Below the pieces are notes generated by a model. The model was not told the DNA's origin. It made no database searches and saw only the letters and a program-made list of their open reading frames with translations. A program made the position numbers and the translations under genes. From the NCBI RefSeq assembly GCF_026210795.1, contig NC_089433.1, positions 4,303,001 through 4,367,000 on the forward strand: a DNA stretch of 64,000 bases, written 5' to 3'. Shown here one piece after another: positions 6,346 to 50,313 of the stretch. Within the stretch, counting starts at the first letter, position 1. The number at the start of each line of letters is the position of its first letter. This stretch comes from Rhizophagus irregularis. Lineage: Eukaryota; Glomeromycota; Glomeromycetes; Glomerales; Glomeraceae.

Positions 6346-6393
6346 GTCACCATTAGGGATGGCAACGGTCACGGTCATTAACCGGTTATGACC

Positions 6394-6866
6394 GTCGTCG
6401 TGCTGGGTGTGGGCACGGTGCAAGCACCACCCACCTCCGGGTCTAACGACCTGTCGCAGTACCTATCTGGTCCCTACGGAACTCAGGAATCCCCATAAAT
6501 CCTCCACAATCCTACACATAGATCCTCCACAAAAATATATAACAAAAAAGGATAAAATAAAAGAAAAGAGAGGAAAATAAGAGGGAATCAGAAGAGTGTG
6601 GAGGATGTGGAGGATGTGGAGGATGTTTTAAAAAAATCAGGAGAGGGATTCCCCCAGAAAAAAGTTTTGATTTTACCCCCCCAGATCCTCCACATCCAGA
6701 ACATCTTCCACACGTACAGGATTCCGTCCGATCATCTGTATAAGCCGATGAGACAGCAAACCAGGTAGATTAACAGGTAAGCCCCTAGAAGGTCTATAGA
6801 GCTGGTAAGACCAACCCCATCCCGCCCCCGTCAGAAAAAATAAGTAATTGAACAATGGGTATACCA
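6394..6866 (+). repeat. Left terminal inverted repeat of the Polinton
   Basis: 473 bp that match the reverse complement of 33333-33805 almost base for base. It contains GC-rich end sequence and several GTGGAGGATGTGGAGGAT-type direct repeats near 6595-6625. An open frame across it (6673-6867) is mirrored in the other TIR and has no coding signature. Confidence 0.9.
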
Positions 6867-6897: not shown

Positions 6898-7218
6898 CTA
6901 ATCCGTTTTCCTCTTTTTTGCCTCTTTAAGACATTTATCAATACACTGCTTGCAAGTGTCATCAGCATCTAAAATTTTCTGTCCGAGTTTTTTGCATTGC
7001 CGATTGTAAGCCGTCTGCTGTCTCTTAGCAGCGGTTTCTTTCTTTTTCTCCTTAGTCTTCTTCTTGATCACCCAGTCTACTCCAGTAAAAGTATTCTTAT
7101 GCATACCACAAATTGTGCAGTCACCATGCAGCCGGTAACGCCCATTTGTAGTCATATCTTGTATTTCACTAGCAGTCTCAGTTTCCTTCTTGCACTTTAG
7201 ACAGTAAAATCGTGTCAT
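6898..7218 (-). CDS. Small zinc-ribbon protein (DUF5679-like)
   Basis: A 106-residue protein starting at the ATG at 7218. The longer frame upstream overlaps the integrase and lacks coding character. The N-terminus MTRFYCLKCKKETET and a later CTICG give two CxxC pairs, the pattern of the short zinc-ribbon domain found in Polintons and several large DNA viruses. The C-terminal half is Lys-rich with another CxxC. The function in the family is unknown; nucleic-acid binding is a guess from the ribbon and basic tail. It diverges from the integrase across a 44-bp shared promoter region. The family assignment is by motif only. Confidence 0.7.
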   Translation of the reverse strand: MTRFYCLKCKKETETASEIQDMTTNGRYRLHGDCTICGMHKNTFTGVDWVIKKKTKEKKKETAAKRQQTAYNRQCKKLGQKILDADDTCKQCIDKCLKEAKKRKTD

Positions 7219-7262
7219 CTTGAGATTTGAAGTCTGAAATCTTTCCTTTAATTTGTCATAAT

Positions 7263-8354
7263 ATGTCACAATTAGAGAATTACTACAAGTACTACAGTCT
7301 ATCCAGAGTACCAGCACGAATTTTAAAAGGTGAAGAGCACTACAACCTATACAAAAAGCCCTTAAAGGAAAAGTCAACAGAACGCCCAAAGGTAATTGTA
7401 TGGAAACCAAATGCAACACACCAGGCAGATCTTGCAGAGATGCCAGTTGACCCCAAAGGATTCCACTATTTCTTCGTAGTGGTGGAAGTTGCAGGAAAGA
7501 GAGTCGATGCAGAGCCCTTGAAGGATAAAACTGCAAATAGGGTTCTCAATGGATTTGTCAAAATCTACAGAAGAAATCGTATCAAGCCTCCAACACACCG
7601 ACTGGAAACCGACTCCGGATCAGAATTCACTAATGACCAGGTACGTGATTTTTTCCTGAACAGCCTAGGGGTGATGATTAGGTTTGGAGAGCCGGGAAGA
7701 CATAAACAGCAATCATATGCTGAAAGAGCTATCCAAGCTATCCAAGAACCCCTTCTTAAACGAATGGTAGCACAGGAGTTGAAAACTGGGGTGACATCCG
7801 TGGAATGGTCAGAAGATTTCCATAATATAGTGAGTAAAGTAAATGAACTCTGGCAGAGAAATCCCCCAGACATTCCGACAGGGTCACCCAAAGTGTCAAA
7901 AAAGACAGACCTCCTCTCTGAAGGAACACGTGTCAGAGTCAAGTTAGATGAACCTATTTCTGTACTTGGTAACAAACTTCATGGAAAATTCCGTACAGGA
8001 GACATAAGATGGAACCCAAACATTCGTGTAATCAAAAAAATGATACTCTCACCTGAACAGCCTCCTACATATCTCCTTAATGGACCACATGGTCGATTAG
8101 GTGTATCCAGATGTGCATATACCCGAAAGGAATTGCAAGTAGTTTCTATTAATGAAAAGCCTCCACCTGACTCTGTGATAAGAGGACAACCCAAAAGATT
8201 CATACCTGAGCAGATACTTCGGCATCGCATTAGAAAAGGTCAAGACCAGTATTTGGTTAAGTGGGAGAGATACCCAGATACAGAAGCCACTTGGGAACCT
8301 GCTGACCAGTTGAAGGAAGATGTCCCTGACTTAATTCGCAAATTTTGGGAATAA
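7263..8354 (+). CDS. Retroviral-type integrase with C-terminal chromodomain
   Basis: A 363-residue DDE integrase. I chose the ATG at 7263 (MSQLENYYKYY) because the 12 codons before it overlap the divergent promoter. Catalytic residues by motif are Asp56 (HQADLAEM), Asp117 (LETDSGSEF) and Glu154 (SYAERAI), a D-60-D-36-E spacing. The last ~50 residues (from FIPEQILRHR to RKFWE) form a chromodomain with LVKWERYPDTEATWEP, which in related elements can direct insertion to marked chromatin. It would cut and join element ends, producing the 5-bp duplication seen. Polinton integrases often carry such a chromodomain. The frame is intact. It converges on the protease gene with a 25-bp gap. Confidence 0.92.
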   Translation: MSQLENYYKYYSLSRVPARILKGEEHYNLYKKPLKEKSTERPKVIVWKPNATHQADLAEMPVDPKGFHYFFVVVEVAGKRVDAEPLKDKTANRVLNGFVKIYRRNRIKPPTHRLETDSGSEFTNDQVRDFFLNSLGVMIRFGEPGRHKQQSYAERAIQAIQEPLLKRMVAQELKTGVTSVEWSEDFHNIVSKVNELWQRNPPDIPTGSPKVSKKTDLLSEGTRVRVKLDEPISVLGNKLHGKFRTGDIRWNPNIRVIKKMILSPEQPPTYLLNGPHGRLGVSRCAYTRKELQVVSINEKPPPDSVIRGQPKRFIPEQILRHRIRKGQDQYLVKWERYPDTEATWEPADQLKEDVPDLIRKFWE

Positions 8355-8379: not shown

Positions 8380-9120
8380 TTATTTTTTATCCCCTCGATT
8401 AGCATCAGGAACTATTGGGATAAAAACATTCTTCCCATTACAGGTAAAGGCTATATGTTCACGTGATTCATGGATATCATAATTGTAACGTTTCAGACAC
8501 GTTCGGCTTAACCCAATTTCCCTATGCTTGTAACCACTTAAGACTGCAAGGTCCTCAGTGATAGCATAATCAGGGGTAAGTTTGATTGTCACTCCCTTTA
8601 CCATACCGAATGTCCTACCTGTTCCTGGAGCACCAGATATGTTGTATGTAATACTCTTGTCGATATCCAACCCTAATTCCTCAGCAGCTTCTCTCTGAAT
8701 AAAAGACGCATTAGCACAAGTGTCTGCTAAACACTGAATTGCTATCCCATTAACCTCCCCATCCAGTGCTAAAAGATCTTTAGTATTCTCCAAACGAGCT
8801 ATATCAATATCCATAGGATCGTATTCCCTGATATCCTCTTCTTGTTCCTCCTCAGCTAAGTCATCTGAAATCTCTATGACTTTTCTAGCAGACATCATCT
8901 CCTCCTGAAGAATCTCACGGAGTAATTTCCTAAAGTCTGCAGACCTTAACAGGCTTAATAAGTCATTCTTAGTAACAGCTTTTGCAGGTGTAGACTTACT
9001 ACCAGTAACTTTCACAGGAATCTTAACAGGGGTTGCTTTGCCTTTCAAGGGTACACTAGAAGAGCTAACTGCTGTCTTATTTGGGGACGACTTAAGAAGT
9101 TTTGAGATACTCGAACCTAC
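8380..9120 (-). CDS. Retropepsin-like aspartic protease (Pro), in -1 frame after Gag
   Basis: The frame is open from the A run at 9121-9129 to the stop at 8380. No ATG begins the domain, and TTG at 9048 is the nearest start-like codon, so expression as a Gag-Pro fusion is likely. The protease core contains LADTCANASFI, where DTCA replaces the usual D(S/T)GA, followed about 70 residues later by a GLSRTCLKRYNYDI segment resembling the retropepsin ILG region. It probably matures the Gag shell. The N-terminal ~90 residues are Lys- then Asp/Glu-rich. Finding a retropepsin in a Polinton rather than an adenain-type cysteine protease is unusual. Loss of the Gly after the catalytic Asp-Thr leaves activity uncertain. 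Confidence 0.75.
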   Translation of the reverse strand, partial: VGSSISKLLKSSPNKTAVSSSSVPLKGKATPVKIPVKVTGSKSTPAKAVTKNDLLSLLRSADFRKLLREILQEEMMSARKVIEISDDLAEEEQEEDIREYDPMDIDIARLENTKDLLALDGEVNGIAIQCLADTCANASFIQREAAEELGLDIDKSITYNISGAPGTGRTFGMVKGVTIKLTPDYAITEDLAVLSGYKHREIGLSRTCLKRYNYDIHESREHIAFTCNGKNVFIPIVPDANRGDKK

Positions 9121-9130
9121 TTTTTTTTTG
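9117..9130 (-). promoter_or_regulatory. -1 ribosomal frameshift site between Gag and protease
   Basis: On the minus strand the zero frame reads TCA AAA AAA AAG TAG. The nine A residues (9129-9121) give two ideal slippery heptamers, A AAA AAA and A AAA AAG. Stepping back one base leads straight into the open protease frame. The Gag stop codon follows immediately. This is the classic layout for making a minority Gag-Pro product. A downstream pseudoknot was not assessed. Confidence 0.65.
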
Positions 9131-10547
9131 ACCCAACACGAACCATATAGACATCACCAACTTTTTCTCTCAATTCTACCTTTTCACCAAAACTCACAGT
9201 ATCAATGTCCATAGCATCATCGTTAAGATCAAGGTTTCTCATTGCTCGGGCCAAATCCAGATCATCACGTCTATCTTTAGCCTTCTGAAGTTGTTTTGTA
9301 AGTATTTTAGACGTCCCACGTTTATATCCCATAATAAGATCAATAGCATTTTGATGATCATCCAAAGTCCACTCAGGAGCATCAGGATCATCACCAACAT
9401 CATGATCTACATAACCATCATCCCAATCAGGATCCTGAGGATCCTGAATAACACGTCTCTGTGGTTTTGGTCGAACAGGTTTAATCTGCTGTCTATAGAC
9501 TGGTGGATTACGAACTGGCCGAGCCTGTAATTGTTTAAATTGCACCTGAAAATTCTTGGTAAGTTCCTCAGCTTGAGCCTTAAGTAACTCTTGTAATTGT
9601 TCTTGAGTAACCCCAGATGACTTTGATGTCAGTACGACAGGTTCCTGTTTTCCTAACGGAGGTTGAGTTACATCACTGTAATCTGCTTGAAGTCGTCGAT
9701 TTCTATCTTGTAACCCCAAGCGCATTTCAGCCCTTCTCTGTTCTAAATTTCTCAGATGTTTAACCAAGTCATCAGAATTAAGATTGTGAAACCTTTCTGC
9801 TTCAAAAATATTATCAGCCGAAAGACCTCTAAAGAACTGGTCGATAATAAGATCATTAGTTAGTTTTAGTAATTTTCCAGCCCTCTTTACAGTTCTATAA
9901 AATGCATCAACTGGCTCATTTTCCTGATAAAGACTGTTAAAACGGATACGTTTCTTTTCATCTAAAATAGTTGGGAATTGTGTTCTAAGCCAATAAAGCG
10001 CCTGGTTAGGTTTAATACCTGGAAAAACTATAGGCCGATTATCATTAGCAGCAACACCAGCATCTGCAGTAGCCGGAGCAGCTCTATCTGTCGGACGAGC
10101 ACCAGCTCTTCCTCAAGCTTTATCTCCACCTATTAAATCATGAGTAGGAATAAATGCTGCTCTAATAGTTGCTAATGCATTAACTGGATCTGTAGCATAA
10201 GTCTGTGCTTCAGACCCATTTACATAAGTACCTGCATTCGGTCCTCCTGCACCTTCTGGTATTACTAATGCTACAAAAGCAGCTAAATTAGCTCCACCTC
10301 TTGAAGTGATACCAGAAAGTTCCCAATTTTTTCCTGTAATTTCTCGATCAAACCATTCAGCTGCTCCACCGGCCATGCAGCTTCTAAGTATACCCATAGC
10401 TCTTTTCCAAGACTCTGGTGGCCCTCCAGCAGCATATGGGTTAAGATTAATAGTATCAAGATAACCCATATAAAGCCTAACAAATGTATCAATATCATCA
10501 GTAGCTTTACCCTCAAAAATCGGCAATCCTATCGCAGTGGTAGCCAT
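9117..10547 (-). CDS. Ty3-like Gag (capsid) protein with one in-frame UGA
   Basis: Start at ATG 10547; the frame runs 476 codons with a single TGA at 10113-10115 (GCT TGA GGA, where CGA Arg would fit). The N-terminal domain starts with GLPIFEGKATDDIDTFVRL and contains RSCMAGGAAEWFDREI. It lines up with GMPTFSGKEDEDINDWIRQF and the LRGIALQWYNEE segment in the Gag of the Ty3 element in this same window. The second half has FPTILDEKKRIRFNSLYQ, EPVDAFYRTVKR and IDQFFRGL, the usual retrotransposon Gag C-terminal pattern. A Pro/Arg-rich and acidic tail follows, and no CCHC knuckle is seen. I infer a shell-forming role. The first 19 bases overlap the coiled-coil gene upstream. Confidence 0.8.
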
Positions 10548-11326
10548 ATCGTCTCTAGTGGATTGTTTAATATAGGTGGAGGAGGGTTCAATTGTCTAAT
10601 TCGAAACCATTGTACCTGAATTCTAAGAGCAGCTATCTGTTGGAAAAGTTTATTTCTAAGTCTCCCTAATGTCTGAATCCCAAAACGCACCCTATTATTA
10701 GCATGTGCTAGCTGTGCATTAACCTGTCCAAGTTGCGCATTAGCCAATACAAGTTGTCCTCCAGTCCGAGTAGCCCTCAGCCGCCAATGATTTAGAAGGA
10801 TATTACCACGATTCACAGCATTTTGAGCCTCATTACGATCCCTTACTGCTTGAGTATAATCTGCTTGTAATACATTACGTTCATGTCGTGCCTGATTACG
10901 TTCACCTATAGCCCGTCGACGAAACTCTACCATAGTATCATAATCTCTTTGCAGGTTATGGTTTTCTTCTATGAAATTATCATTGGCAGCACGTATAATA
11001 ACTAATTGACGTTCTAAATTAGTAAACGTTTCATCAAATGCATTTATCTTACCTTGTGCAAAAACTAACAAATCTTTTGTAATACCAAGTTCTTCATGTT
11101 TTGCTTTACAGCGATACATTAATATATTAATAATATGTTTGATTTGATTATTTGCCTCCTGTATCTCTGAATCAACAGTTAAACGACCCCTGGTAGTCAA
11201 TAAATTTGCATGAGCCTTTAGTATTCTAACTAATTCATCATCGTCTTTTTCATTGACCAAGTGTGCAGGAGGCGGTCCAGTAGGTTCTGAAGGAGTATAA
11301 ACTGGAATTGGTGTTGATGTCGACAT
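10529..11326 (-). CDS. Coiled-coil structural-type protein, possible Gag partner
   Basis: 265 residues, intact, starting at ATG 11326. The N-terminus is Pro/Thr-rich (MSTSTPIPVYTPSEPTGPPP), the middle is a long amphipathic helix rich in Arg, Gln, Asn and Glu, and the end is Pro-rich. No catalytic motif is visible. It overlaps the start of Gag by 19 bases, with Gag in the -1 frame relative to it, so the two may be translationally coupled. It diverges from the ATPase with only 31 bp between the start codons. By position it could be a matrix or scaffold component; that is inference. Confidence 0.65.
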   Translation of the reverse strand: MSTSTPIPVYTPSEPTGPPPAHLVNEKDDDELVRILKAHANLLTTRGRLTVDSEIQEANNQIKHIINILMYRCKAKHEELGITKDLLVFAQGKINAFDETFTNLERQLVIIRAANDNFIEENHNLQRDYDTMVEFRRRAIGERNQARHERNVLQADYTQAVRDRNEAQNAVNRGNILLNHWRLRATRTGGQLVLANAQLGQVNAQLAHANNRVRFGIQTLGRLRNKLFQQIAALRIQVQWFRIRQLNPPPPILNNPLETIWLPLR

Positions 11327-11357
11327 AGTATTTAAACTAAGTAAGAATAAAATTTAA

Positions 11358-12581
11358 ATGGATCTTTATGTATACAATTTGGACGAGTACACGACTGACT
11401 CAAGACAAGGCAATGAGTTTGCTCCATCATGGCCCTTTCGATTAGCCGTAGCAGGTAGCTCAGACTCAGGTAAGACAACTATGATCATTAACTTGTTAAT
11501 GGGTGACAAGAAGGCAAAGGAGGATGGTAATCGGTATGTACTATGTGATGCAGTACTTTTAGTTGGCAGATATCTTGACGAGCCGAAGTGGGCAGTTGTA
11601 CATGATTTTTTCAAAGAGGAGAAGATCCCATTCACTGCAGTAACCCATAGTGAGATTCCAGAGATTGACTCCTTCGACCCTACTCAAGCTACTGTGGTAA
11701 TCTTCGAGGATCTGATGGATGCACCTAAAAAAATCCAGGATCTCATCACTGGTTACTTTACACATGGACGACACAAAAATATTTCATATATTTATGTAGC
11801 CCAAAGATTCTTTGCCATGCCTAAGGCTATTCGAGAAAATGTTAACTACATCTCACTGCATGGAGGTCATGGGAGCCTTACAGATACTAAGAGAATCATC
11901 CGCCTATATACAGAAGAATCAGAGTCATTAGCACCAGTAATTGATGATCTTACTCTGCAACGTGAATTTGTAGTGTTTGATCTTAGACGGTCTAAAAGTG
12001 ATCCACTGTCCATTCGAGTAAGATGGGATACTAGTCTCAGTTCGATCACAGAGCAATCTCAGTTCAATCCTAGTTCAATCTCAGTTCAATCTCAGTTTGA
12101 TCCAAGTTTGAACCCAGTTCGATCTCAGTCTGAACCCAGTTCAATCACAGTTCGATCCAAGTTTAGTCCCTATGGTCAGAAAGCTGTATCTGAAGCAAAA
12201 AAAGGTGGACACTTGATTGAATTTGCTCGGGTATTTCCATCCCCTAAAGAGCGTCAACATTTACTTGTACCTGGTGTCTTAGCCAAGAATACAGATACCT
12301 GGATTAAATTTGTCTTTCGGGAAGCTTATGGACTTTCTGGTAAGACCCTAGGAGCTGACTTTCAGGACTTCTTAGCAAAAGTACAGGGTAGGACTGCAAA
12401 GACTGAAACTCTGAAAACTGAGAATGTGAAGGAGTTATTCTCCCGATATGAAGCCCTGAAGTCTAGTCGCCCTCTGGATAATAAAAAAATAATAGAAGGT
12501 ATTGAAGATCTTCTACAGATCTTTTCTAAGAGCCACATGGACCGTCGAGCATTACAAGTAGGGATTAATAGTATCTTGTGA
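11358..12581 (+). CDS. A32-like DNA-packaging ATPase (FtsK/HerA superfamily)
   Basis: 407 residues, intact, ATG at 11358. Walker A is GSSDSGKTT at residues 33-41. Walker B is TVVIFEDLMD near residues 112-121, followed by a conserved TGYFTHGRHKNISYIYVAQ segment containing the sensor Gln. This layout matches the packaging ATPases of Polintons and large DNA viruses, which pump the genome into capsids. Residues about 225-275 are a low-complexity insert made from repeats of an S-x-F-(N/D)-P-S pattern (DNA 12030-12170), absent from typical members. Its presence beside a Gag-like gene suggests that the element packages DNA into a Gag-based shell. Confidence 0.9.
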   Translation: MDLYVYNLDEYTTDSRQGNEFAPSWPFRLAVAGSSDSGKTTMIINLLMGDKKAKEDGNRYVLCDAVLLVGRYLDEPKWAVVHDFFKEEKIPFTAVTHSEIPEIDSFDPTQATVVIFEDLMDAPKKIQDLITGYFTHGRHKNISYIYVAQRFFAMPKAIRENVNYISLHGGHGSLTDTKRIIRLYTEESESLAPVIDDLTLQREFVVFDLRRSKSDPLSIRVRWDTSLSSITEQSQFNPSSISVQSQFDPSLNPVRSQSEPSSITVRSKFSPYGQKAVSEAKKGGHLIEFARVFPSPKERQHLLVPGVLAKNTDTWIKFVFREAYGLSGKTLGADFQDFLAKVQGRTAKTETLKTENVKELFSRYEALKSSRPLDNKKIIEGIEDLLQIFSKSHMDRRALQVGINSIL

Positions 12582-13125
12582 GAATATCAAGTAATTCGTC
12601 TGCAGAAGCTCTAAGAATCATAGCACTTTTTTTACGGCCTTCAAAGTCAATCCTTAACATCTTAGCCTTCAACCCTATTGCTCCTAAGGCACGAGAAGCA
12701 AAGTTCTTAGTCATTGAATTACTTATATGATTTACATAGTTCTCATAGAATGTATTGAAAGGCTCGTCGATACCATCTGGATATGTACCCCTTAGAAATT
12801 GATATAAGGCAATTTCTCCACTATCACAACCTATGGCTATAAGCTGTTCGAGAAGCCACTTCCTAATATCTTCATATGGCTCTCCATCCATAATTTTCAT
12901 ATCCAGTCTTTGTGAAAACAATTGTGTAAAGTCCACATTACTTGCCCGACGAATGATCTGAACTAACTTATCCCTAGCAAGTCCCAAGGCTTGTAGAGGG
13001 TCATTCTCATCATTAATCTTCTTTATAATCTGTCTGTATAATACACTGGATAATCCTCTATGTGCTGTTTTTGGAGTGATTACTCCACAGTTTTGGCACT
13101 GGTTTATTACGATTGATGTTGACAT
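12565..13125 (-). CDS. Conserved-looking protein of unknown function
   Basis: 186 residues, intact. ATG at 13125 gives MSTSIVINQCQNCGVITP, with one CxxC close to the N-terminus, then a mostly helical body ending ADELLDILTRYY. No family was recognised. It converges on the ATPase gene and overlaps its end by 17 bp, which supports a genuine compact element gene. The Polinton genes for minor capsid, penton or maturation factors have no recognised counterpart here, so this is a candidate for a structural role, without direct evidence. Confidence 0.6.
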   Translation of the reverse strand: MSTSIVINQCQNCGVITPKTAHRGLSSVLYRQIIKKINDENDPLQALGLARDKLVQIIRRASNVDFTQLFSQRLDMKIMDGEPYEDIRKWLLEQLIAIGCDSGEIALYQFLRGTYPDGIDEPFNTFYENYVNHISNSMTKNFASRALGAIGLKAKMLRIDFEGRKKSAMILRASADELLDILTRYY

Positions 13126-13170
13126 GGCTATCTTTCTTTATGTAAAAAAGAATTATTCAAAATTAAGTAA

Positions 13171-13752
13171 CTATTCGGAGCAGTCCTTGCACAACTTGTC
13201 CGTTAAGTCACTTGGGCTTACAGGCATGAGACATTCCTTACACAACTCAATATTAAGCTCTGCAAGTCTCGGGGTATGGTCCTCCAAAGTTCGTGGATGA
13301 CCGGAAGGACCAGAGGAAGGTGTCCCATTAGTCGTATCTTGCTGTAAGATAAAATCATCATATTCATCTTGGTCAGCCTGAATAGCGGCCCTGATTTGTT
13401 GTATATCATTGAAAGTTAACCGCTGCCCATCAAGATTTTCCTCATTATAGCGTGTTTCATTGATGATTTCCTCTATAAGCGCCTCTTTTTCATAATGGAC
13501 AAGGTAGTAATCCTCAACTACCTCATAGTCACTCTCAATCAGTCTATGATATGTTCTAGTACCACGTCAAATATAACGTCCTGTATCTGTATTTAAATAT
13601 ACAGGTTGCTCTTCAGGTGGAGGTGCAGTTTGTCTACGGACAAGCCTTCCATCAATATAATCATGGGATTCCATAACTATTCGATTAAAGGTATCTCCAC
13701 CAACACAGATTGGACGTCCAGTTATAGGATTAGTTATATAAGGGTATGACAT
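13171..13752 (-). CDS. 2-cysteine-adaptor-like protein with one in-frame UGA
   Basis: The frame runs from ATG 13752 to TAG at 13171 (193 codons) with a single TGA at 13567-13569. The N-terminus NPITGRPICVGGDTFNRIV resembles the short NPxTGRxIxxGGxTYxxL module repeated in many large DNA virus proteins. A second, weaker copy follows (TDTGRYI, then the UGA, then RGTRTYHRLI). The UGA sits inside that second module, where CGA or a Cys codon would fit. An acidic middle follows, and two CxxC pairs at the C-terminus (CKECLM and CKDCSE) suggest a zinc site. Function is unknown. The frame is fully open apart from one codon, so loss is recent or the UGA is read through. Confidence 0.6.
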
Positions 13753-14040: not shown

Positions 14041-14439
14041 TCATTCCACTCCCCAAGGGTCGCCTCCCCATCTTTGTTCACTTAATGCATGCTCTATGGT
14101 TTCCCTTTCCTGGGGGTTCACAACCATCCCATTCCTAAGCATTTTCTCCATAATATAAAGCTGATCCTCGGTGAGGCGGTCTATCCAGTTTTTATAGGAG
14201 TCATTTACATCTTCAAATGTCATCCACTCAATATCCCCCTTTTCAAACCGCTTTCCAAGAGCCTGGATTTCCCAGTACACATCCCCGATCGTAGTAGCGT
14301 AATTTTTCCATCTCTTATATGCTTCTTGACGAACCTCCTGCCACCACACACTATCTACTTTACTCGCTGCAATAAGGTCAGTATCTGGGATCTTTGCAAC
14401 AATGCGTTCGACTATTTCTACTGGTAATCGGTCCAACAT
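14041..14439 (-). CDS. F-box protein
   Basis: 132 residues, intact, ATG at 14439. The N-terminus MLDRLPVEIVERIVAKIPDT, followed by DLIAASKVDSVWW, is a good match to the F-box (LPxEIxxxI, DLxxxSxVxxxW), which binds Skp1 in SCF ubiquitin ligases. The rest is charged and helical, ending GGDPWGVE, with no recognised substrate-binding repeat. F-box genes are not part of the standard Polinton set, so this looks like a captured host gene. A plausible role is to redirect host ubiquitination, which is inference. The second F-box-like gene at 32948-33307 supports a real theme. Confidence 0.7.
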   Translation of the reverse strand: MLDRLPVEIVERIVAKIPDTDLIAASKVDSVWWQEVRQEAYKRWKNYATTIGDVYWEIQALGKRFEKGDIEWMTFEDVNDSYKNWIDRLTEDQLYIMEKMLRNGMVVNPQERETIEHALSEQRWGGDPWGVE

Positions 14440-14532
14440 GATGTTATGTTACTTATACTATAGCCATCTTCAATTACTGTATGCCCATTACAAATGGATA
14501 AAAAATATAAACTAAATTCGTACAGGAGCCGC

Positions 14533-15003
14533 TTATGCAAGAAGTTCTGCTAAGGTTTTCTCAGCCTCATTCATAGTGACAGCTCGCTTTGGGGGACCTG
14601 TTAATGAGTCCTTAGTTACATTATAATACAACTCGAAGAGGGCCTCAAGTTTGTCTAAAAGAGCTTGTTTATTCTTGTATGATTCACGAATCTTTGCTAT
14701 CTTAGCAGTATATGCTGCATTATCTGGGAAGAGTTTTTTGGCCACGAACTTCACATATGATACAGGAGACTTTGCTGTCTGGATTCTCTTGATATACTTC
14801 ACATGATCCTGGACAAGGTAGCTGGTTTTGCTAAACCCAGATACTAATGTGACTACTATAGTGTCTTTCAATGCACGGATAATCTTGAGGACAGTTTCAT
14901 CAGAGACAATGGTGAACTGATTGCATGATGCATCATAAATAACTTCATCACTAATGCTGTCAGTGCGGTTAATAACGCTTGCTAATTCAGTATATGTTGA
15001 CAT
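14533..15003 (-). CDS. Unknown element protein
   Basis: 156 residues, intact, ATG at 15003 (MSTYTELASVINRTDS). It is predominantly helical, with a Lys-rich middle (KYIKRIQTAKSPVSYVKFVA) and an acidic end. No motif was recognised. It lies 113 bp downstream of the polymerase stop, on the same strand as its neighbours, so it probably belongs to the Polinton. Confidence 0.6.
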   Translation of the reverse strand: MSTYTELASVINRTDSISDEVIYDASCNQFTIVSDETVLKIIRALKDTIVVTLVSGFSKTSYLVQDHVKYIKRIQTAKSPVSYVKFVAKKLFPDNAAYTAKIAKIRESYKNKQALLDKLEALFELYYNVTKDSLTGPPKRAVTMNEAEKTLAELLA

Positions 15004-15116
15004 GATTCCTTATACTTTTTTGTACTTTGTAATAAATAGGAATCTTCAAATTGACTTTACATTCAAGCAAGAAAAAATATATATACCTACTGTAAATCCA
15101 ACTGCATTCTTGGCAA

Positions 15117-16973
15117 TCATGTCCAGATAACCTTGTTTGCATTTTTCACATGGCAGTATCCTGCGGTTTCAAACTTGAGAGCTTTCAATGCTTTGGATGC
15201 ATTTTCTGGACAAGTGATAAGTGTAGGACTACTCGGCTGTTCCTCTAGAATAAATCCATCTGTATGGATGCGTCGTACTTTATCCTTATATAGTTCTAAT
15301 AACTCTGAAGTCGTCTTCTGACCATGTGCTAATAAGAATGGAGCGATCCTAGGATACTCACCCTTGAAGGGACTACCTGGGTTTGTGAACTGGAATCGCC
15401 ACTGGTCAAATCCTACTGGTACGATGGAGTCAAGTGTGTGGCCTTCTGGAAACTTGAATGGATCTGTTTGATCTGTGGTGAGTGTCTTGTAATTGCGTTT
15501 CCTCTGGCAGAGTGCTCCCCATAGTGTATTGAGAACTCTCTTTGCAACACGACCGGCCACGCCACCCTGGTTCTTTATATTGAAGAGAAAGTGAACATAC
15601 TCACCAAATATTACAGTCCCAGGAATTCTTGCTTCTCTGTCATATATCAAGGCATTTGGCTTTCCATCCTGGATTAACTGTATATCGAGACCAAGTTTCT
15701 TTGCTCGTTGTAAGTCAATGAATGTATAGACTCCCCTCTTATTCTGTCAGAAGAGAATGTCATTACCACTTACCTTGGCACGAAATAATCCATACAAGGC
15801 ATAACCTCTGTGGTCTACAAAGTCTTTGAGTATTTGAAACTTACCTTGTCGGATTGGAAAGTTTGCATTTGATTGCTGAATACTTGGATACAAACTTGTC
15901 ATGTCGTATTGTCTTCCATAGCCCTTCCATTCATTATCTGCCCAGATAAGACCTCCCATCATTGCATCACTTATCCACTCTGCTTCGACTGGGTCAAGAG
16001 GATCATTGGCTGGAACCCCTACACTAAACTGTTCAAAAAGCCAGAGTGCAGTTCTCTTGTACGACCAGTTGTGGTAAGATAAGTCGATTCCTAGACCGAA
16101 CTTCTTTGTAGCCTGTAGAAAGGAATCCCGCTCTTCATGGATCCTCTGGTATGTTTCCTCAAGTGTTTCATATATTCCAGTTTTACGATTCTTCTCAATA
16201 GGGATGAAGGAGTAACTATCAGAGTTCTTACCTTTCTGAAACTGTCCAACTGTAAGAGACTTAACTGTCTTACCATTGTATATTGTTACTACATTATTAA
16301 CCCCATCTTCACGATAAACAAAGGGAGACTTTTGTTTTCTATCTAATTTACTAGGGTGAAGTCTTCCGGGATTCAGTGCAAGAGAGTAGTGGCCTTCAGA
16401 CAGGATGAGGGTTGCACGTCTGTCAGATTTGCTCTTGGAAATTCGAGTGGAATCCCCTACAATATTAAGTGCAAGGCTTCCTGCAAGTTGTTCAACCTTA
16501 TCCATATATGAGACTGGAACTGGAGCATCACGATTGAGACCTAATGCCTTTTTGATATATTCAGGCTTTTTTATAGTCTCGGGTATTTTAGAGAATATAC
16601 CATAGATATGCTTCAGGCATTCATACAGGCAATCATTTAGCTTCCCATTGCATCCCCCTGCAACCGGTGGAGCATCTCTCACATAAATTATGAATCGTTC
16701 AAAGTAATCAGGATCTGCATCATCCGGTAGTTGTGCTTCATCATAGTGGTTTAAGAGTGAGAAGAGGCTGGCTGGTTGGTTTCCTGATGTCCATCTACCG
16801 GGTTTCCAGTTTTCATAGGGGAGCAGGATCTGAAATTTATGTGTCGGATACCGGGATTGGAGTCGCTGTCCAAGTCTTGCTATTACTCCTCTGGAAAATC
16901 TTGCGCCTGAATACTGTAATTCTTTGATATCCGGTCTTGTAGGTAAAGCACGGACAATCTCTGAATAAACCAT
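15117..16973 (-). CDS. Protein-primed-type family B DNA polymerase with OTU-like N-terminal segment; one in-frame UGA
   Basis: 618 codons from ATG 16973, interrupted once by TGA at 15747-15749 (codon 409; CGA would fit between LF and QNKRG). Polymerase motifs in order are A, YDMTSLYPSI (356-365); B, AKRVLNTLWG (478-487); and C, HTDG (570-573). The order and spacing suit the protein-primed PolB of Polintons. No 3'-5' exonuclease motifs are evident and the protein is shorter than typical Polinton polymerases. Around residues 107-120, GCNGKLNDCLYECL, and near 195, GHYSLAL, resemble the Cys and His boxes of an OTU-type cysteine protease. It would copy the element from its ends using a terminal protein. 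The UGA separates motif A from B and C, so this copy may be dead. Confidence 0.88.
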
Positions 16974-17037
16974 TTGATGTATTTATGAATTGTGTTCAGT
17001 TGTAATATAGGTTTTTTATACAAAAAATATAAGATAA

Positions 17038-19106
17038 CTAAGAAGTGCTTATCTTATTAAAAGGAGTCAATCTTGCTGCATACACGATCAAGATCCTCTT
17101 CATCCCAGTCATCGACGATTCCATTGGCAGCTTCCCATTCACGTTCCATATCAGTTTTTGGACATTCCTCTGGAATTTCTCGTGCTTTACCTTATTCATC
17201 TTCATAGTTTCATAACCAGAGGTGGTAGGGATAATCTCGGCATCACGATCCTCCTTGTATACTCTTATTAGATCTGCAAGCTCTTTACGGCTAGGTGTTT
17301 TAGATAAGTATCCATTATATTCGATCCAGTCCTTGAAGCGGTCTACTACTTCCCTAAGGTAGTACTGGTACTCGTCTTCAATACGTGTTGTGGGACATTC
17401 CTCTACTTCAAACGCGAGTATTTCCAAGTCATACTCGTCTGACGCGTTTTGGTACTTAGCCCATAAATCCTTACCTGTATTGTAGAGATCATTGAAGACC
17501 TGGTCCTTTGAATTCTTGACCCATGGCTTATAATCCCATCGGTGCCTTTCATGCCAAGCCCAGTGTGCTCGAGTACCTTCCTTTGGTTCAGGGTCCCAGT
17601 CAACTTCTAGTTCTGTGTCGGGTTCTGGGATAGGTTGCTCTTCAGGAGCCGGTTCTGGGTCAGGATTAGTGACAGATGCAGAAGATTCTGCGGGAGACTC
17701 GGATTGTTGTTCAGGAGCCAGTTCTGGGTCAGGCTTAGTGACAGATGCAGAAGATTCTGCGGGAGACTCGGGTTGTTGTTCAGGAGCTGGGTTCACAGTT
17801 GTAAAATCTGAGTCAGATAGCAAGTCATCTAAAACGTCATAGTCATCATCAGCTTTAAATGCAGGTTCCTCAGCAGGCGGCTCATTTTCTTGATCAGGTT
17901 CCTCATCAGATAGATAACAGTCCGAGAAGCTATCTATAGGTTCATCAGTATCTGACTCTATAGGAGCTGGAGATTCCTCAGGAATAGGATCCTCATTGAT
18001 GACAGGTGCGGGTTTTACCTTCAAGCAATCGGGCTTAAGTGGTACTGGTGGTGGAGTCTTTTTGGAAACTGGTTTCTCTTCAGTAGGCTTCTTCTCGACA
18101 GGAGCGGGTTTTTCCTCAGCAGGTTTCTCTTGTACGTCTTGTGGATTATTAGCAGGAATGCTATGTATATTTGCCAAGAACTTCTCTAAGGCTTTGGGAT
18201 CAGATGCGGGTTTCTCAGGAGTATCTATATCAATTCCTTCTATATCGATTTCATCTGTTTCATGTATCCAGTTTTTGCCAAGAAACTTCTTGTATAGATC
18301 CTCCCTAGATATACTGTAAACTTGTGGTGTTGTTTTACCTATACGCATTTTTTTACTTTTTATACTTAGCTCATTTGATAGGATTCTGGATGCATTGATC
18401 TTTGATAGGGGTGAAATGCAATGAGTTTCACAGTATGAAGTATATACCCTATAAAATTCTTGAATAGGTAGGTCGGTTATATGATTTTTTACTATGAGGT
18501 AAGTGTCCTTTATGAATTGAAATAGGGGTGGGAGAGTCGATATGATGTGATCCTGCTTAGATGTTATCATAGGTGGTGGATTCCCATTGAAGTCTGGGTA
18601 AGCGTCTGCAATGGCTCTCAAGTAAGCATAGAATGCCTCACTGGCGCCTGGATATTTCATAGCATCACCGAGTTTCTTAAAGTAGTTGAGGTCTCCCTTG
18701 CGGGATGGTGACACATCCAAGAACACTGTGCGCCTATCATCATTCTCCACTCTGAGAGCATTTTCATTGGTGAGTACAATGGTGGATATAAAGTTTTTGT
18801 AATGTGTTGGCGTCTTGTATTTTTCATGGATTTCCATTATGTCACCTGTTAACTTATCCTTCAACGATCGATACAGATTATTCCACTGGCTTTTTTCTGT
18901 AGGCATTTTCTCAAGGAGGAGAAGAACCTTACCTTGTAATTGCCCATTGAAACTTCCAAGAATCGTTTGAGGATCGCTGGTCTTATAAACAAGTTGAGTA
19001 CCTAAGACACTACGTTGAATGAAATCTGTTATAATACTCTTACCCCAACCCTGTCCAGATTTCAGGTAGAGAATCGAATACATTTTCCTTCCAGCTGCCA
19101 CACCGG
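17038..19106 (-). pseudogene. SF3 helicase, C-terminal portion (split by the Ty3 element)
   Basis: This is the larger part of the Polinton helicase; its N-terminus is at 32164-32729. Walker A GQGWGKS lies near 19030, Walker B (VLLLLEKMP) near 18920 and the sensor STIVLTNENA near 18770, typical of superfamily 3 helicases fused to primase-like regions. The tail is long, with Pro/Glu/Lys repeats (including two copies of an ESPAESSASVT module near 17660-17770) and then a Trp-rich acidic region. Removing the Ty3 element and one 4-bp target copy restores an uninterrupted frame of about 876 codons, so the gene was intact before the insertion. Confidence 0.85.
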
Positions 19107-20484
19107 TGTCACCCCCGTCTGCCACCCGGCGGTAAACAAAGTTCCCTGCTTCTGTTATATGTGCTCTCAGCGAAACATTAACATTCTTGCTTGGTTTAGT
19201 TTTATTACTACTTAACTTTCAAATTGCGATAGCTCTCGCCACGATATTTCATCCATTATCTTCTTTCAAAATACGATAGTTCTCTTTACAAAAGTTTATA
19301 TTTTATTCATTTCATAATTCTTGTTATGACATTAAATTCACCATGAATTTGTCCAATTAAAATTAATTAAGCGAACATTACAGTAAAGTTTAGGGCGAAC
19401 CTATTACCTTTAAAATAACATTACGCTTTACTAACAATTAATTAAACAAAATTACTTTTTCATCATAGGAAAATAGTAACAAAAACAATCGAAACAATTA
19501 ATTTTCATATAAAGGGTATTTTATTTATTCTTCATAAAATTCACAATTTAACTAATTTACTTAAAGTTTTACATCGTATCTGACGACTGTGGAATTCACC
19601 TCCCATTCCGCTCCTATTTAAACCAACTTTCTTATTCTTTCTTTTCTTACTTCTTATTTCTTTCTAATATTTTATATGTTATCTTTTATGCGCTATCTTA
19701 TATGCTATTTATATATTATCTTTTCTAATATGTTATACTATTTTAATACGCTATCTTTTCTTTAAAATAAAATAATCTTTCAAATATTATATCGTAAAGA
19801 TCCATCTTTTGTGGCTATGCTATCTTTTCTTTAAAATAAAATAATCTTTCGAATATTATATCGTAAAGATCCATCTTTTGTGGCTGTGCTATCTTTTCTT
19901 TAAAATAAAATAATCTTTCAAATATTATATCGTAAAGATCCATCTTTTGTGGCTGTGCTATCTTTTCTTTAAAATAAAATAATCTTTCAAATATTATATC
20001 GTAAAGATCCATCTTTTGTGGCTGTGCTATCTTTTCTTTAAAATAAAATAATCTTTCAAATATTATATCGTAAAGATCCATCTTTTGTGGCTGTGCTATC
20101 TTTTCTTCTGCGTCTCGTCAGCTATTCTTCTACTGCGGCTGCAGTTCATCAATATTTTACATGTTCCTATTTTTTTTGTTCCTTTAATTCGCTATCCTTC
20201 CTTTTTATATGATTTATCATTTGTGGCTTATGATTACTCCTCCTAATTGTTCCTATTGTTGAACTTGATAAACTGGTTGCTAAGCCACATCGATCAACTC
20301 CCCACTTGATCTATTGGTTCCCCGTTAATCATTTAATAAACATTACATCATGTAGATCATTCCTTCTCCTAAAAGTTTATCCTTTCCGGTTAGTTTTATC
20401 CAATCATGTGACTTTCTATCGTTTGATCTTTTATTCCATATTATTCCTCCATATTATGCGATTACTTCAGCATCTATGGCTACA
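19107..20484 (-). repeat. LTR (3' LTR of the Ty3 element)
   Basis: 1,378 bp bounded by TG and CA on the coding strand. It holds five copies of a 69-bp tandem repeat. The polypurine tract abuts it at 20485. It appears identical to the LTR at 30786-32163. Confidence 0.95.
19750..20094. repeat. Five 69-bp tandem repeats inside the LTR
   Basis: Units begin at 19750, 19819, 19888, 19957 and 20026, followed by a partial unit. Copies are almost identical. Because 69 is a multiple of three, they create an open frame of repeated 23-residue blocks, which is a by-product, not a gene. The same array recurs at 31429-31773. Tandem blocks in an LTR often act as enhancer-like elements; here that is a guess. 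Confidence 0.9.
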
Positions 20485-20499
20485 GTTTGCCCCCCACCT
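20485..20499 (-). promoter_or_regulatory. Polypurine tract of the Ty3 element
   Basis: On the coding strand AGGTGGGGGGCAAAC lies directly before the 3' LTR start TGTAGCC, the standard position for plus-strand priming. It follows the integrase stop by about 15 bases. Confidence 0.8.
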
Positions 20500-20514
20500 A
20501 AAATTTGAGTCCCA

Positions 20515-21702
20515 TCAAATTCGAACTATTACTTCAAAATTTGTCCTATCAATATATTCTTTCAGTAATTCGCCATTTACTGGTGTTTTCAATATCTTCC
20601 CTTCCATAGTTTTAATTCTGTATGATCCTTTAGAAATTATCTCATGTACATAATAGGGTCCTTTCCATTTTTCTTCTAACTTTCCAGACCATTGTTTTTC
20701 TTTTGCTGCGTCATAATATAGTACTTTATCTCCGATTTGTAATTTCTGCTTTACTCTATTCTTTTTATCATGGTACGATTTTTGTTTTTCCTGAGATTTC
20801 CTGACATTTTCTTTAGCTTGATTCCTAATGTTTGGTAATCCTTCGATCAACCCATTAACTCTCTCTGCCATGGTAATTTCCTTATCTTCTAAATCTAATA
20901 ATGTCTTCATTTGTCTCCCATATATTAAATATCCTGGTTCCATTTTCGTTGAATCATTCCTTTTAGTTCGATACGCGAACAATACTCCTGGTACTTTCAA
21001 ATCCCAATCTTCGATATTACTTAGCTTTGCTAATGATTCACATAATGTCTTATTAAATCTTTCAATTAACCCATTAGTTTTTGGATGATAAGGCGTTGAA
21101 AAGTTATGTTTTATCTGAAATTCCTCCATTAATGATTTCACTAATTTATTATTGAAATGACTCCCTCTATCACTCAATATCTTCTTTGGACATCCATGCC
21201 TACATATTATATCTTCATAAATAAATCTTGCAATTTCCTTAGCATCTGCTGTTTCCAATGCCTTTGCTTCAGGCCATTTTGTAAAATAATCCATCGCTGT
21301 AACTATATATCTATTATTTCTCTTTGTTACTGGTAATGGTCCCACTACATCAATCCCAATTTGATAAAATGGTTCTATAACTTTGATTACATTCAGTTCA
21401 TGTTTTCCTATTGGTTTTCCTCTTCTCTGACAATTATTACATGATTTGACATAAGCTTCCACATCTTTTCTCATCCCTTTCCAATAATACCCATCCTTGA
21501 TCCTATTATACGTTGCATCTATTCCAAAGTGTCCTGATAATTCATGATCATGAGCTATGTACATTAATCCTTCAAATTCGTATTTTCTTATCACTCTTAG
21601 TCTTTTCTCATCTTTTATTTTGTAAATTAATCCTCCTATAATTTCATATTCCCGTTCGTCGTTGATATTCCTCGCTATCCTATTATATTCTTCCTCTTCC
21701 AT
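20515..21702 (-). CDS. Ty3-type integrase
   Basis: 395 residues from ATG 21702. An HHCC zinc domain (HELSGHFG, then CNNCQ) precedes the DDE core: Asp in QIGIDVVGPLP, Asp in LSDRGSHFN and Glu in NGLIERFNKT. After the core, WKGPYYVHEIISKGSYRI is the GPY/F module. No chromodomain follows. It has its own ATG and lies in a different frame from RT, separated by about 230 bp that include short repeats of a TTGTAAAA motif. Most Ty3 integrases are made as part of Pol, so a separate ORF implies re-initiation, splicing or a damaged junction. The frame itself is intact. Confidence 0.92.
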   Translation of the reverse strand: MEEEEYNRIARNINDEREYEIIGGLIYKIKDEKRLRVIRKYEFEGLMYIAHDHELSGHFGIDATYNRIKDGYYWKGMRKDVEAYVKSCNNCQRRGKPIGKHELNVIKVIEPFYQIGIDVVGPLPVTKRNNRYIVTAMDYFTKWPEAKALETADAKEIARFIYEDIICRHGCPKKILSDRGSHFNNKLVKSLMEEFQIKHNFSTPYHPKTNGLIERFNKTLCESLAKLSNIEDWDLKVPGVLFAYRTKRNDSTKMEPGYLIYGRQMKTLLDLEDKEITMAERVNGLIEGLPNIRNQAKENVRKSQEKQKSYHDKKNRVKQKLQIGDKVLYYDAAKEKQWSGKLEEKWKGPYYVHEIISKGSYRIKTMEGKILKTPVNGELLKEYIDRTNFEVIVRI

Positions 21703-21932
21703 GTCTATGTTGTAATTCTAAAAGCTAAAGTGTTGTAAAAGGTTGAAATGTTATAAAAGGTTGAAGTGTTGTAAAAATTAAGGTGTTGTAAAAATTAAGG
21801 TGTTGTAAAAATAAAGCGTCGTGATAACTGTTCCATATATTTTTAATTTTCATCTCTTGATTTATTTTTGATCCTTGGTATTTCTATCCTTCTTATATAT
21901 TTTTCATTCCCTACAATCAATTTAGATCGTAC

Positions 21933-22184
21933 TCATCCTAATCCTTTTTCTATTGGTCTTTCTTCTATTATCATATTGTTTCCATCTTCCATAATTAATT
22001 TCACCTTTTTCTCTTTTAGTCTTATTATAATGTGTACATCTACTAGTATGAAGTCTTCTTCTTCTTCAATCCTTAAATGGATAATTGTTTCGTTCTCTTC
22101 TTCTTTTATGGTCACTTTCCATATCTTATCGACCTTTACTCGATAAGTAAGAAACCAATTCATATAACAATCTCCTAATACCAT
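21933..22184 (-). CDS. Small ORF between RT and integrase
   Basis: 83 residues (MVLGDCYMNWFLTYRV onward), alternating charged and hydrophobic residues in a beta-rich pattern. It lies in the same frame as the RT ORF, one TAA after it, and its own stop is TGA followed by GTA. After that stop the frame stays open for about 28 more codons. It may be a former C-terminal part of Pol or an intron-containing junction. No family was recognised. Confidence 0.4.
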   Translation of the reverse strand: MVLGDCYMNWFLTYRVKVDKIWKVTIKEEENETIIHLRIEEEEDFILVDVHIIIRLKEKKVKLIMEDGNNMIIEERPIEKGLG

Positions 22185-22199
22185 TTTGGAAATATAATT

Positions 22200-24533
22200 T
22201 TAAGCTCTTTGGTGTTTTTCTATCTCCTTATATACTTTTCTCCAACTACTATCGTCATTCCTAACTTCAATTTGACTGTATCTTTTGGTATCTTTGTATA
22301 CATCCTGGTTTTCTTTAAACATTTTAACCATGTCCAAATATTCATTTTTCTTTAATGTTGGGTATGACGATTTCTCCATTTTCTTCGTTTCTCTTCCAAT
22401 ATAATTTTCCCAACATACATCACCATCTTTTTCCAAAAATATCACTATTGATTCATCTATTGTTCCTTTTAATCTGAATATTTCTTTTTCCATCTCATGG
22501 TTCCCATGTGGAGTAATTAATCCTCTGTTGAAACTTTTCGTCTTCTGATAATAATATTCGCAATATGGCGATTTGTCTAGAATTATTATATCCGTATCTT
22601 CATCATATTCTAACATTCTTCTGTTTATTTGTTCTACTACTTCCTTTCTAAATTTCCATTCTGTTTCTAATTTTGATTCGTGAAATTCACCTTTGTCTTT
22701 TCTTCTCCTTTTGAATGTATTAAATCTTACTTTTAATCCTTGCTTTTCCCACTCTTTAATCAAATTTTGTACTATACTTGTTTTTCCTAATCCATCCACT
22801 CCGTCGATTATAATAACTTGTGGCTTATTTTCTCTTCCCAATTTCTTTAATAATTCTTTTTCTGTCCTTTCCTCCAAATTCAAAAGTATTGCTTCTTTAT
22901 CGGTAAAATATTTTTCATCATCCCATCTCCCTTTGAATCTTTTAACATTATACCATTTATTCCTAAATTTGATATATCTCAATTTCCCCTTATTACTTTC
23001 TATTTTTGTTATTTCTTGATTCTCGTTCCTTTCTGTTTCTTTTTCTTTAAATCTCAGTCTTGATAATCCATCTGCATTTTTAATTTTCTTTCCACTTCTA
23101 TGTACTATTTTAAAATCAAATTGTTGTAATTTCATTACCCATCTTGCTCTCCTTCCCGTTTGTTCCTTTCCATCTGTTAATCCTTTTAATGCTGCGTGAT
23201 CTGTTATCACTATAAATTTCCTTCCTACTAAATATTTCTGAAAATGTTGTATTCCCCAAAATACCGCTAAGCATTCCAATTCTGTTGGTGGATAATTCTT
23301 CTCTGCTCCAACTGTACTCCTACTTGCGTAAGCTATTACAACCTCTTTATTTTCTTCATTCATTTGAGCTAACACTGCTCCTAATCCTATCTTAGATCCA
23401 TCAGTTATCAATATAAATTCTCTGCTGAAATCCGGATATACTAAAATTGGATTTTCTGTCAATTTTGTCCTTAATACGTCAAATGCTTCTTGTTGTTCTT
23501 CTTTCCATTCAAACTTTTCATTCTTTCTTGTTAAGTTAAGCAAAGGTTTTGCTATCTTCGAAAAACCTTTTATAAATCTCCTATAATATGAACATAATCC
23601 TGAAAATGATCTTACTTCTGTGACAGTTTTCGGCCTCCTCATATTTTCTATTTTCTCAACTTTCTCTTTATCCGGTCGCAATCCATCTCTTCCTACTATA
23701 TGCCCTAAGAAATTTATATTTCTCAATCCAAACTGACATTTCTTCAATTTCACAATCATATTATTCTCTCTCAATTTACTCAATACTTTATCTACATGTT
23801 CTATATGCTCCTCAAAATCTTCTGAATAAATCATTATATCATCTAAATACACTGTAACAAATTCTCCTATATATTCTTTTAATATTTTATCCATTAATCT
23901 CTGAAATGTTCCTGGTGCATTCTTCAATCCAAATGGCATAACATTGTATTCATATAATCCTTGTGAACAAATGAATGCTGTTTTCTCTTTATCTTCTTCT
24001 GCCATTTCTACTTGATGATATCCTGCTGCTAAGTCCAAACTTGTGAACCAACTTCCCTTTCTAAATTTTTCTAACAATTCGTCTATCCGGGGTAAAGGAT
24101 ATTCATCTGACTTTGTCACATTATTTAGCTTTCTATAATCTATACAAAATCTATAATTTCCAGTTTTCTTTCCTGCTAACGTTACTGGAGATGCCCAATT
24201 ACTCCATGATTCTCTTATCTTCCCCATCTTTAACAATTGTTCAATTTCTTTCTTTATAAACTTTCCTTTTTCATCAGTTTCTTTATATCTCTTTTGTGCT
24301 ATTGGTCCTTGATTTTCTTCAATTATTATTTCATGTTTAACTGTATTTATCCTTCCCAGTTTCTCTTCGTCATATTCGAATATATCTTCATATTCCCTTA
24401 TCAATTTTTCAAATGCTATTCTCTCCTCATCGCTCATTTCTCCCAGATGTGTTTTCTTTTCAAATTTTTCTTCTTTGCTCTCATTTAGCATCTTTACCGT
24501 CTCTCCTTCATTCAGAAAGCCAAGACCATTCAT
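22200..24533 (-). CDS. Pol: reverse transcriptase - RNase H - thymidylate-kinase-like domain
   Basis: 777 residues. The RT begins near residue 80 and includes FCIDYRKLN, FTSLDLAAGYHQ (catalytic Asp) and VYLDDIMIYS near residue 230 (YLDD active site). RNase H spans about 370-490, with ILITDGSKIG, PTELECLAV and ITDHAALKG supplying the acidic residues, ending ADGLSRL. After a linker, residues about 570-777 form a P-loop kinase: IIIDGVDGLGKTS matches the thymidylate-kinase phosphate loop, and DIIILDKSPYCEYYYQ matches the DRxxxSxxAYQ-type substrate region. Such kinases make dTDP from dTMP, so it could raise dNTP supply for reverse transcription. The start ATG overlaps the protease stop as ATGA (-1 frame). 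The fusion is not one I know from Ty3 elements. Confidence 0.9.
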   Translation of the reverse strand: MNGLGFLNEGETVKMLNESKEEKFEKKTHLGEMSDEERIAFEKLIREYEDIFEYDEEKLGRINTVKHEIIIEENQGPIAQKRYKETDEKGKFIKKEIEQLLKMGKIRESWSNWASPVTLAGKKTGNYRFCIDYRKLNNVTKSDEYPLPRIDELLEKFRKGSWFTSLDLAAGYHQVEMAEEDKEKTAFICSQGLYEYNVMPFGLKNAPGTFQRLMDKILKEYIGEFVTVYLDDIMIYSEDFEEHIEHVDKVLSKLRENNMIVKLKKCQFGLRNINFLGHIVGRDGLRPDKEKVEKIENMRRPKTVTEVRSFSGLCSYYRRFIKGFSKIAKPLLNLTRKNEKFEWKEEQQEAFDVLRTKLTENPILVYPDFSREFILITDGSKIGLGAVLAQMNEENKEVVIAYASRSTVGAEKNYPPTELECLAVFWGIQHFQKYLVGRKFIVITDHAALKGLTDGKEQTGRRARWVMKLQQFDFKIVHRSGKKIKNADGLSRLRFKEKETERNENQEITKIESNKGKLRYIKFRNKWYNVKRFKGRWDDEKYFTDKEAILLNLEERTEKELLKKLGRENKPQVIIIDGVDGLGKTSIVQNLIKEWEKQGLKVRFNTFKRRRKDKGEFHESKLETEWKFRKEVVEQINRRMLEYDEDTDIIILDKSPYCEYYYQKTKSFNRGLITPHGNHEMEKEIFRLKGTIDESIVIFLEKDGDVCWENYIGRETKKMEKSSYPTLKKNEYLDMVKMFKENQDVYKDTKRYSQIEVRNDDSSWRKVYKEIEKHQRA

Positions 24534-25051: not shown

Positions 25052-25135
25052 TTTTCCCTCAATTATTATATTACATCTTGTTGCTTGTGATTTTTCTTCT
25101 TTCTGATTAATATTCTTTAATTCCCCCGAGTGTAG

Positions 25136-26032: not shown

Positions 26033-26050
26033 GTTTTTCTCTTGTCCTAC

Positions 26051-50305: not shown

Positions 50306-50313
50306 GTTGGTCT

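Follow-up and report, generated by a model that had tools for sequence, protein, structure and literature searches.

An inverted-repeat element and its genes

The DNA considered here is a stretch of 64,000 nucleotides (the window) from the fungus Rhizophagus irregularis, G000:C5:4303001-4367000 in a genome of 146.7 Mb and 32 contigs that was searched as a whole. It contains a Polinton-like transposable element at 6394-33805, in which a gag gene and a gene for a retropepsin-like protease (together gag-pro) lie among the genes of a DNA transposon. An earlier note on this DNA had described intact terminal inverted repeats (TIRs) of 473 bp, and both arms are indeed present, 98% complementary to each other (6394-6866 and 33333-33805). 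The genes that it placed between them, for a B-family DNA polymerase (PolB), a helicase, a chromodomain integrase and an A32-like ATPase, each have a Pfam match, that of PolB (DNA_pol_B_2) lying below the cut-off. From left to right the DUF5679 gene is on the minus strand, the integrase on the plus strand, protease, Gag and coiled-coil protein on the minus strand, the ATPase on the plus strand and the remaining genes on the minus strand. Ratios of non-synonymous to synonymous substitution (dN/dS) come from one comparison per gene between two subfamilies, A and B, with sequences drawn from several copies. The features, with positions counted in the window, are these:

6389..6393, no strand: left target-site duplication TGACC (flank sequence)
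6394..6866, plus: left TIR, starting GTCGTCG, 98% complementary to the right arm
6898..7545, minus: open reading frame (ORF) with DUF5679 domain (Pfam 1.3e-16)
7224..8354, plus: integrase, rve core (2.6e-9) and C-terminal chromodomain (2.1e-17); dN/dS 0.08
8380..9153, minus: retropepsin-like protease, active site LADTC, in the -1 frame to gag (Asp_protease_2 7e-8; B copy 2.9e-8)
9117..10595, minus: gag ORF, ATG at 10547, TGA at 10113-10115; capsid-type Gag by homologue profiles and predicted fold
9120..9130, minus: putative slippery site C A9 G just upstream of the gag stop (from the sequence; A9G retained in B)
10529..11353, minus: coiled-coil-like protein (in the B copy it matches coiled-coil families), its end overlapping the start of gag in a different frame
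11358..12581, plus: A32-like ATPase (Pox_A32 9.2e-9, above cut-off); dN/dS 0.09
12565..13137, minus: conserved 190-aa protein, low-confidence all-helical model; dN/dS 0.10
13171..13566, minus: remnant of a ~202-aa protein, open copies of which show weak similarity to a 2-cysteine adaptor domain
14041..14448, minus: F-box-like protein (F-box E 0.008, below cut-off)
14533..15009, minus: 158-aa protein; dN/dS 0.17
15117..16982, minus: B-family DNA polymerase-like protein, TGA at 15747-15749 (DNA_pol_B_2 6.9e-5, below cut-off); dN/dS 0.07
17038..19106, minus: larger part of the helicase gene (DUF5906 2.7e-15), broken by a nested Ty3
19107..32164, minus: nested Ty3 retrotransposon with identical long terminal repeats (LTRs), splitting the helicase gene and not part of the element
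32165..32774, minus: remaining N-terminal part of the helicase gene, similar by eye to the N-terminus of the open L062 gene
32948..33325, minus: small F-box-like protein near the right end (by eye)
33333..33805, minus: right TIR, pairing with the left arm
33806..33810, no strand: right target-site duplication TGACC (flank sequence)

The window element is one degraded copy of a large R. irregularis family. We call it degraded because in-frame TGA codons interrupt gag (10113-10115) and PolB (15747-15749), both of which are open in other copies; the frame 9117-10547, taken in the earlier note as open gag, is therefore not open here. Without the nested Ty3 and one assumed 5-bp duplication the copy would measure about 14.3 kb by arithmetic. 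TGACC at its two ends is weak evidence by itself, as the flanks are mutually similar GGTCA-rich repeats. Its exact 20-base terminus was found at its own two ends and nowhere else, and related termini occur elsewhere in the genome.

gag-pro is an integral part of the element family

Searching this genome gave at least 122 Gag matches and at least 107 ATPase matches. Merged into loci, these came to 113 for Gag and 102 for the ATPase. An A32-like ATPase lay no more than 15 kb away from 100 of the Gag loci, each time in one and the same divergent layout, and 99 of the ATPase loci were paired with gag. Exact 18-base termini fell into type A (46 occurrences) and type B (75), against none for a reversed control pattern. 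We paired adjacent, inward-facing termini less than 45 kb apart, which left 20 A and 23 B termini unpaired; the window copy, whose own terminus differs, is not among the 39 pairs. gag was enclosed by 13/13 A pairs and 25/26 B pairs, 38/39 in total, so that copies with the same TIRs but no gag, the first outcome by which the earlier note would have had its reading refuted, were not borne out for family members with TIRs of this kind. The sole pair without gag is a 3-kb B pair (C6:1450872-1453909), perhaps a non-autonomous deletion derivative. Pairs reach 40 kb, and in three B pairs there are two gag genes from different copies, whose coordinates indicate nested or adjacent elements.

The position of gag-pro is the same in both subfamilies, whose Gags are 55% identical. 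The window and a copy on C13 have integrase, PolB and helicase alongside gag, and a copy on C24 has PolB and helicase. From the terminus pairs and the gag loci with an ATPase it follows that gag-pro is integral to the element and not a secondary insertion; chance is excluded by the genome-wide co-occurrence of gag and ATPase.

The C13 copy is an intact sister (C13:658218-673230, 15,013 bp, covered by L061 and L062) with the target-site duplication ATTAA. Its TIRs match at 485 of 488 aligned positions, the alignment including the duplicated bases, and its integrase, protease, Gag, ATPase, PolB and helicase genes are all open. Its ORFs of at least 300 aa encode the integrase (376 aa), Gag (514 aa, counted from stop to stop), the ATPase (411 aa), PolB (624 aa) and the helicase (836 aa). 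This copy was inserted into a Ty3 element: when its flanks are joined minus one duplication, both sides match Ty3 pol. That Ty3 copy is not open at this point, since its two sides lie in different frames. In ten further copies, checked at both ends, exact 5-bp duplications were present in eight and none in two. The family thus has 5 bp where extracts of the literature give 6 bp for vertebrate Mavericks (PMC8097293) and for polinton-like viruses (PMC12220804). Because of this difference the integrase reaction would be slightly different from that of vertebrate Mavericks.

Gag is a capsid-type protein

Against Retrotrans_gag the larger fragment of the window Gag gave E 0.11 and the smaller fragment no match, and the identity of Gag was therefore established through its homologues. 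Among 39 of these, 32 matched Retrotrans_gag (E up to 1; best 3.2e-5), and PEG10 was matched at E 7.7e-4. Among the matches listed for the predicted fold, 50 of 50 were Gag-type capsids (a list without Foldseek E-values), and the model predicts both capsid lobes and an SP1-like helix. By profile and predicted fold Gag is hence a retroelement capsid protein, as the earlier note had proposed in calling it Ty3-like, and the same two lines rule out a chance resemblance. We regard it as almost certain that Gag is an integral capsid (CA)-fold protein of the element. The note had also compared it with the Gag of a Ty3 element 15 kb away; this Ty3 turned out to be nested inside the TIRs. No CCHC zinc knuckle, a feature that is not universal in Gags, was found in the 492-aa Gag frame that was read.

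gag, protease, integrase, PolB and ATPase are all under purifying selection in the A-B comparison. Gag has dN/dS 0.39 overall, with 0.28-0.35 in the first 160 columns (dS at least 1.2), 0.52 in columns 241-320 and 0.82 in columns 401-480. The coiled-coil protein, with an overall dN/dS of 0.56, is weakly constrained, and its first 160 columns are close to neutral. Between the A and B Gags the capsid part is 46% and the tail 66% identical; in other pairs the pattern is reversed (P0019 and the A Gag: capsid part 95%, tail 48%). This comparison, for which 10 of the 39 sequences were used, suggests that lineages have exchanged the capsid lobe and the C-terminal tail of Gag, giving mosaic Gags.

The helicases of the C24 and C13 copies (L063:5325-7799 and L062:2517-5027) are 24-49% identical in the core, columns 81-640, and mostly 79-90% identical in the tail. 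The window helicase is of the L062/C13 type (79% overall).

The protease and its frame

An aspartic protease following Gag in the -1 frame had been noted earlier, and Asp_protease_2 matches it above the cut-off. Its ORF overlaps the end of gag at a run of nine A. Among 31 copies examined, 25 had A9 before the gag stop and four had A7 or A8, while the script found no run in two; the B copy has retained A9G amid different surrounding sequence. K-rich C-terminal tails, as expected if the A-run is conserved, are present in 35 of 39 Gag homologues. A hairpin in the RNA behind the A-run was rejected, as no significant structure was found downstream. Slippage of polymerase or ribosome on the A-run alone would for this reason be the likelier route to the protease frame.

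The protease motif stands beside gag in 30 of the 31 copies. Its active site reads LADTC in 29 of these 30 and LADIC in one, in place of the D-T/S-G form. Despite DTC, the dN/dS of the protease is 0.15, which means purifying selection. Among PDB sequences its sole match up to E 1 was 7efy (E 0.047), named UBA domain-containing protein, which we take to be a Ddi1-type retropepsin domain. That integrase and protease were simply taken from the nested Ty3 was considered and rejected: pairwise BLAST gave E-values of only 0.035 and 3.4, and the element integrase does not match the H2C2 domain present in that of the Ty3.

No jelly-roll gene found among the other large genes

Neither a double jelly-roll nor an adenain-like gene had been recognised in the earlier note, and the ORF inventory of the intact sister copy together with Pfam agrees. 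In that inventory, which leaves out introns, no ORF of at least 300 aa is unassigned, so the genes then without a function are all too small to encode a double jelly-roll capsid, the second finding that the earlier note had named as refuting its reading. The 190-aa protein, the one small protein that was modelled, is predicted to be all-helical, without strands, at low confidence (predicted local distance difference test, pLDDT, 47.6). Pfam gave no match to an adenain-like cysteine protease up to E 1, and none to reverse transcriptase, in the element proteins scanned. The NCLDV (nucleocytoplasmic large DNA virus) capsid family had no match in the genome itself, and control genomes were equally silent. 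The element's termini are inverted repeats, not LTRs.

PolB had no match among PDB sequences up to E 1; in the B copy it scores 25.5 bits (E 7.7e-6) with DNA_pol_B_2, just short of the cut-off of 25.8. The ATPase had a single PDB match (E 0.69), taken as chance. The 2C_adapt matches of the ~202-aa protein, 0.00088 in L063 and 0.001 in L061, are both below the cut-off. Two small F-box-like genes (14041-14448 and 32948-33325) lie within the element.

Nested Ty3 and neighbouring sequences

The LTRs of the nested Ty3 (19107-20485 and 30786-32164) are 1379 bp long and 100% identical. Its pol contains, by eye, a P-loop nucleotide-kinase-like domain after RNase H (22200-22850, minus), which has only a weak NB-ARC match in Pfam; the second Ty3, around the sister copy, has a kinase-like domain 64% identical to it. 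An N-terminal extension of about 850 aa precedes the Gag domain of the nested Ty3 (26051-29053, minus).

To the left of the element, 1-2520 holds the helicase end and an F-box-like gene from another, partial copy of this family. To its right are large palindromic repeat arrays (33852-34049 and 36697-38069) and, at 48712-52975, Helitron-like remnants (PIF1 helicase 1.8e-29, Helitron_like_N 9.2e-18).

Occurrence in other sequences and literature

Database proteins named Rhizophagus irregularis are up to 98% identical to a Gag of the family. Another search gave 87 Gag matches, among them proteins of R. irregularis, metagenomic Gags and P0280 of Paraglomus occultum, 37% identical to the query, and a Gag match is also present in Rhizophagus diaphanus (P0040). 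Rhizophagus clarus (P0175) and a large metagenomic set are among the 120 of 232 ATPase homologues listed. For Gag P0043 as for ATPase P0154 the source is an ENA contig with a length of 9,782 bp, probably one and the same. Scans of viral_contigs with Gag, ATPase and integrase returned no relatives, which is weak evidence as few peptide patterns were used.

According to extracts of the papers concerned, R. irregularis Mavericks are among the recently expanded elements and have numerous weakly methylated copies (PMC8647823), and Polinton capsid genes were full-length in 46 of 72 cases and split in 13 (PMC4028283). In the Polintons first described from Glomus intraradices (R. irregularis) no capsid gene could be detected, which led to the proposal that it had been lost (PMC7805220). 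A Gag in a Polinton was not reported in the extracts of the open PMC literature matches listed, subscription journals, preprints and Repbase lying outside that search.

Discussion

We think it likely that the family is a 14-15-kb self-synthesising transposon of the Polinton/Maverick type whose shell module consists of a retroelement-type Gag and a retropepsin-like protease. The proposal of the earlier note, that gag-pro replaced the shell module while a packaging ATPase was retained, is supported in this respect; shell building and DNA packaging are what we infer from it. PolB would copy the element as linear DNA from the TIR ends, and the integrase would insert the linear copy into the host genome. 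Gag would assemble a CA-type shell in place of a jelly-roll shell, slippage on the A9 run would yield a minority of Gag-Pro, the protease would trim the Gag shell and the ATPase would act in loading or organising the element DNA. It seems reasonably probable that Gag forms a shell, intracellular or transmissible. That the ATPase loads DNA into this shell is a tentative suggestion, which we would sooner doubt than accept.

DNA loading is the weakest step of the mechanism: retroviral Gag normally gathers RNA without a motor. Catalysis by the protease is uncertain given DTC instead of DTG. The DTC site, the missing zinc knuckle and the fast evolution of Gag (dN/dS 0.39) would suit a capsid-less transposon in which gag-pro is integral and Gag serves as a nucleic-acid-binding, targeting or transport protein. 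We consider this unlikely, as both capsid lobes and an SP1-like helix are predicted, protease and A-run are conserved beside Gag, and a packaging-type ATPase is retained under strong selection. It is very improbable that the true capsid is a jelly-roll hidden in small genes or behind introns, with Gag as an accessory: the 190-, 202- and 158-aa and coiled-coil genes are without assigned function and the inventory excludes introns, but the ORFs of at least 300 aa in the intact copy are all accounted for and the 190-aa protein is predicted, at low confidence, to be helical. Retrotransposons do enter these elements, as the nested Ty3 testifies, yet a secondary retrotransposon insertion of gag-pro into a single copy, or into a few, of an otherwise ordinary Polinton has practically no chance of being true, being refuted by the counts of terminus pairs (38/39) and paired ATPase loci (99/102), by the retention of gag under selection in two subfamilies with Gags 55% identical, and by a gag accompanied by neither LTRs nor a reverse-transcriptase match.

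Capsid exchange between virus realms has mostly been inferred from distant comparison. Here a double jelly-roll module appears to have given way to a retroelement Gag-Pro module in a multi-copy family of which at least one copy is intact. Whether Gag forms particles, and whether these enclose the DNA of the element, can thereby be put to the test. As a wider and rather speculative possibility, PolB-encoding transposable viruses of Glomeromycotina might have passed from a jelly-roll shell to a Gag shell, with double-stranded DNA loaded by an A32-type motor and the capsid lobe swapped as a module. Gag-Pro may also explain the lack of a detectable capsid gene in R. irregularis Polintons, as described in the extract of PMC7805220, and the finding suggests looking for non-jelly-roll shells in other 'capsid-less' Polintons.

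Comparison with known systems

The early G. intraradices Polintons share with our element the host species and, in the extract of the paper (PMC7805220), the lack of a detectable jelly-roll capsid gene; Gag-Pro is not mentioned in that extract, and the identity of the two is not confirmed from sequence. Like Ty3/Metaviridae Gag-Pro, the element combines a two-lobed capsid fold, in this case predicted, with an aspartyl protease behind Gag, which lies in the -1 frame. Unlike Ty3/Metaviridae it has no reverse-transcriptase match, LTRs, integrase H2C2 domain or zinc knuckle, and its active site is DTC. The coat protein of caulimoviruses derives from Gag and their particles contain double-stranded DNA, but they replicate by reverse transcription, whereas in our element a PolB-like gene is present and reverse transcriptase has no match. 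If the proposed Gag shell is real, we would have here an autonomous DNA element that does without reverse transcription and yet has a capsid of the retroviral CA fold.

With Polintons and Mavericks the element shares TIRs, an rve integrase, a PolB-like polymerase, an A32-like ATPase, a length of about 15 kb and integration into the host genome. Polinton integrases carry a chromodomain. It differs from them in its Gag and retropepsin-like protease, its helicase and its 5-bp target-site duplications, and in that no jelly-roll or adenain gene was found. Since the duplications are of 5 bp, PolB is divergent and an adenain-like protease was not found, the element is Polinton-like rather than a canonical Polinton.

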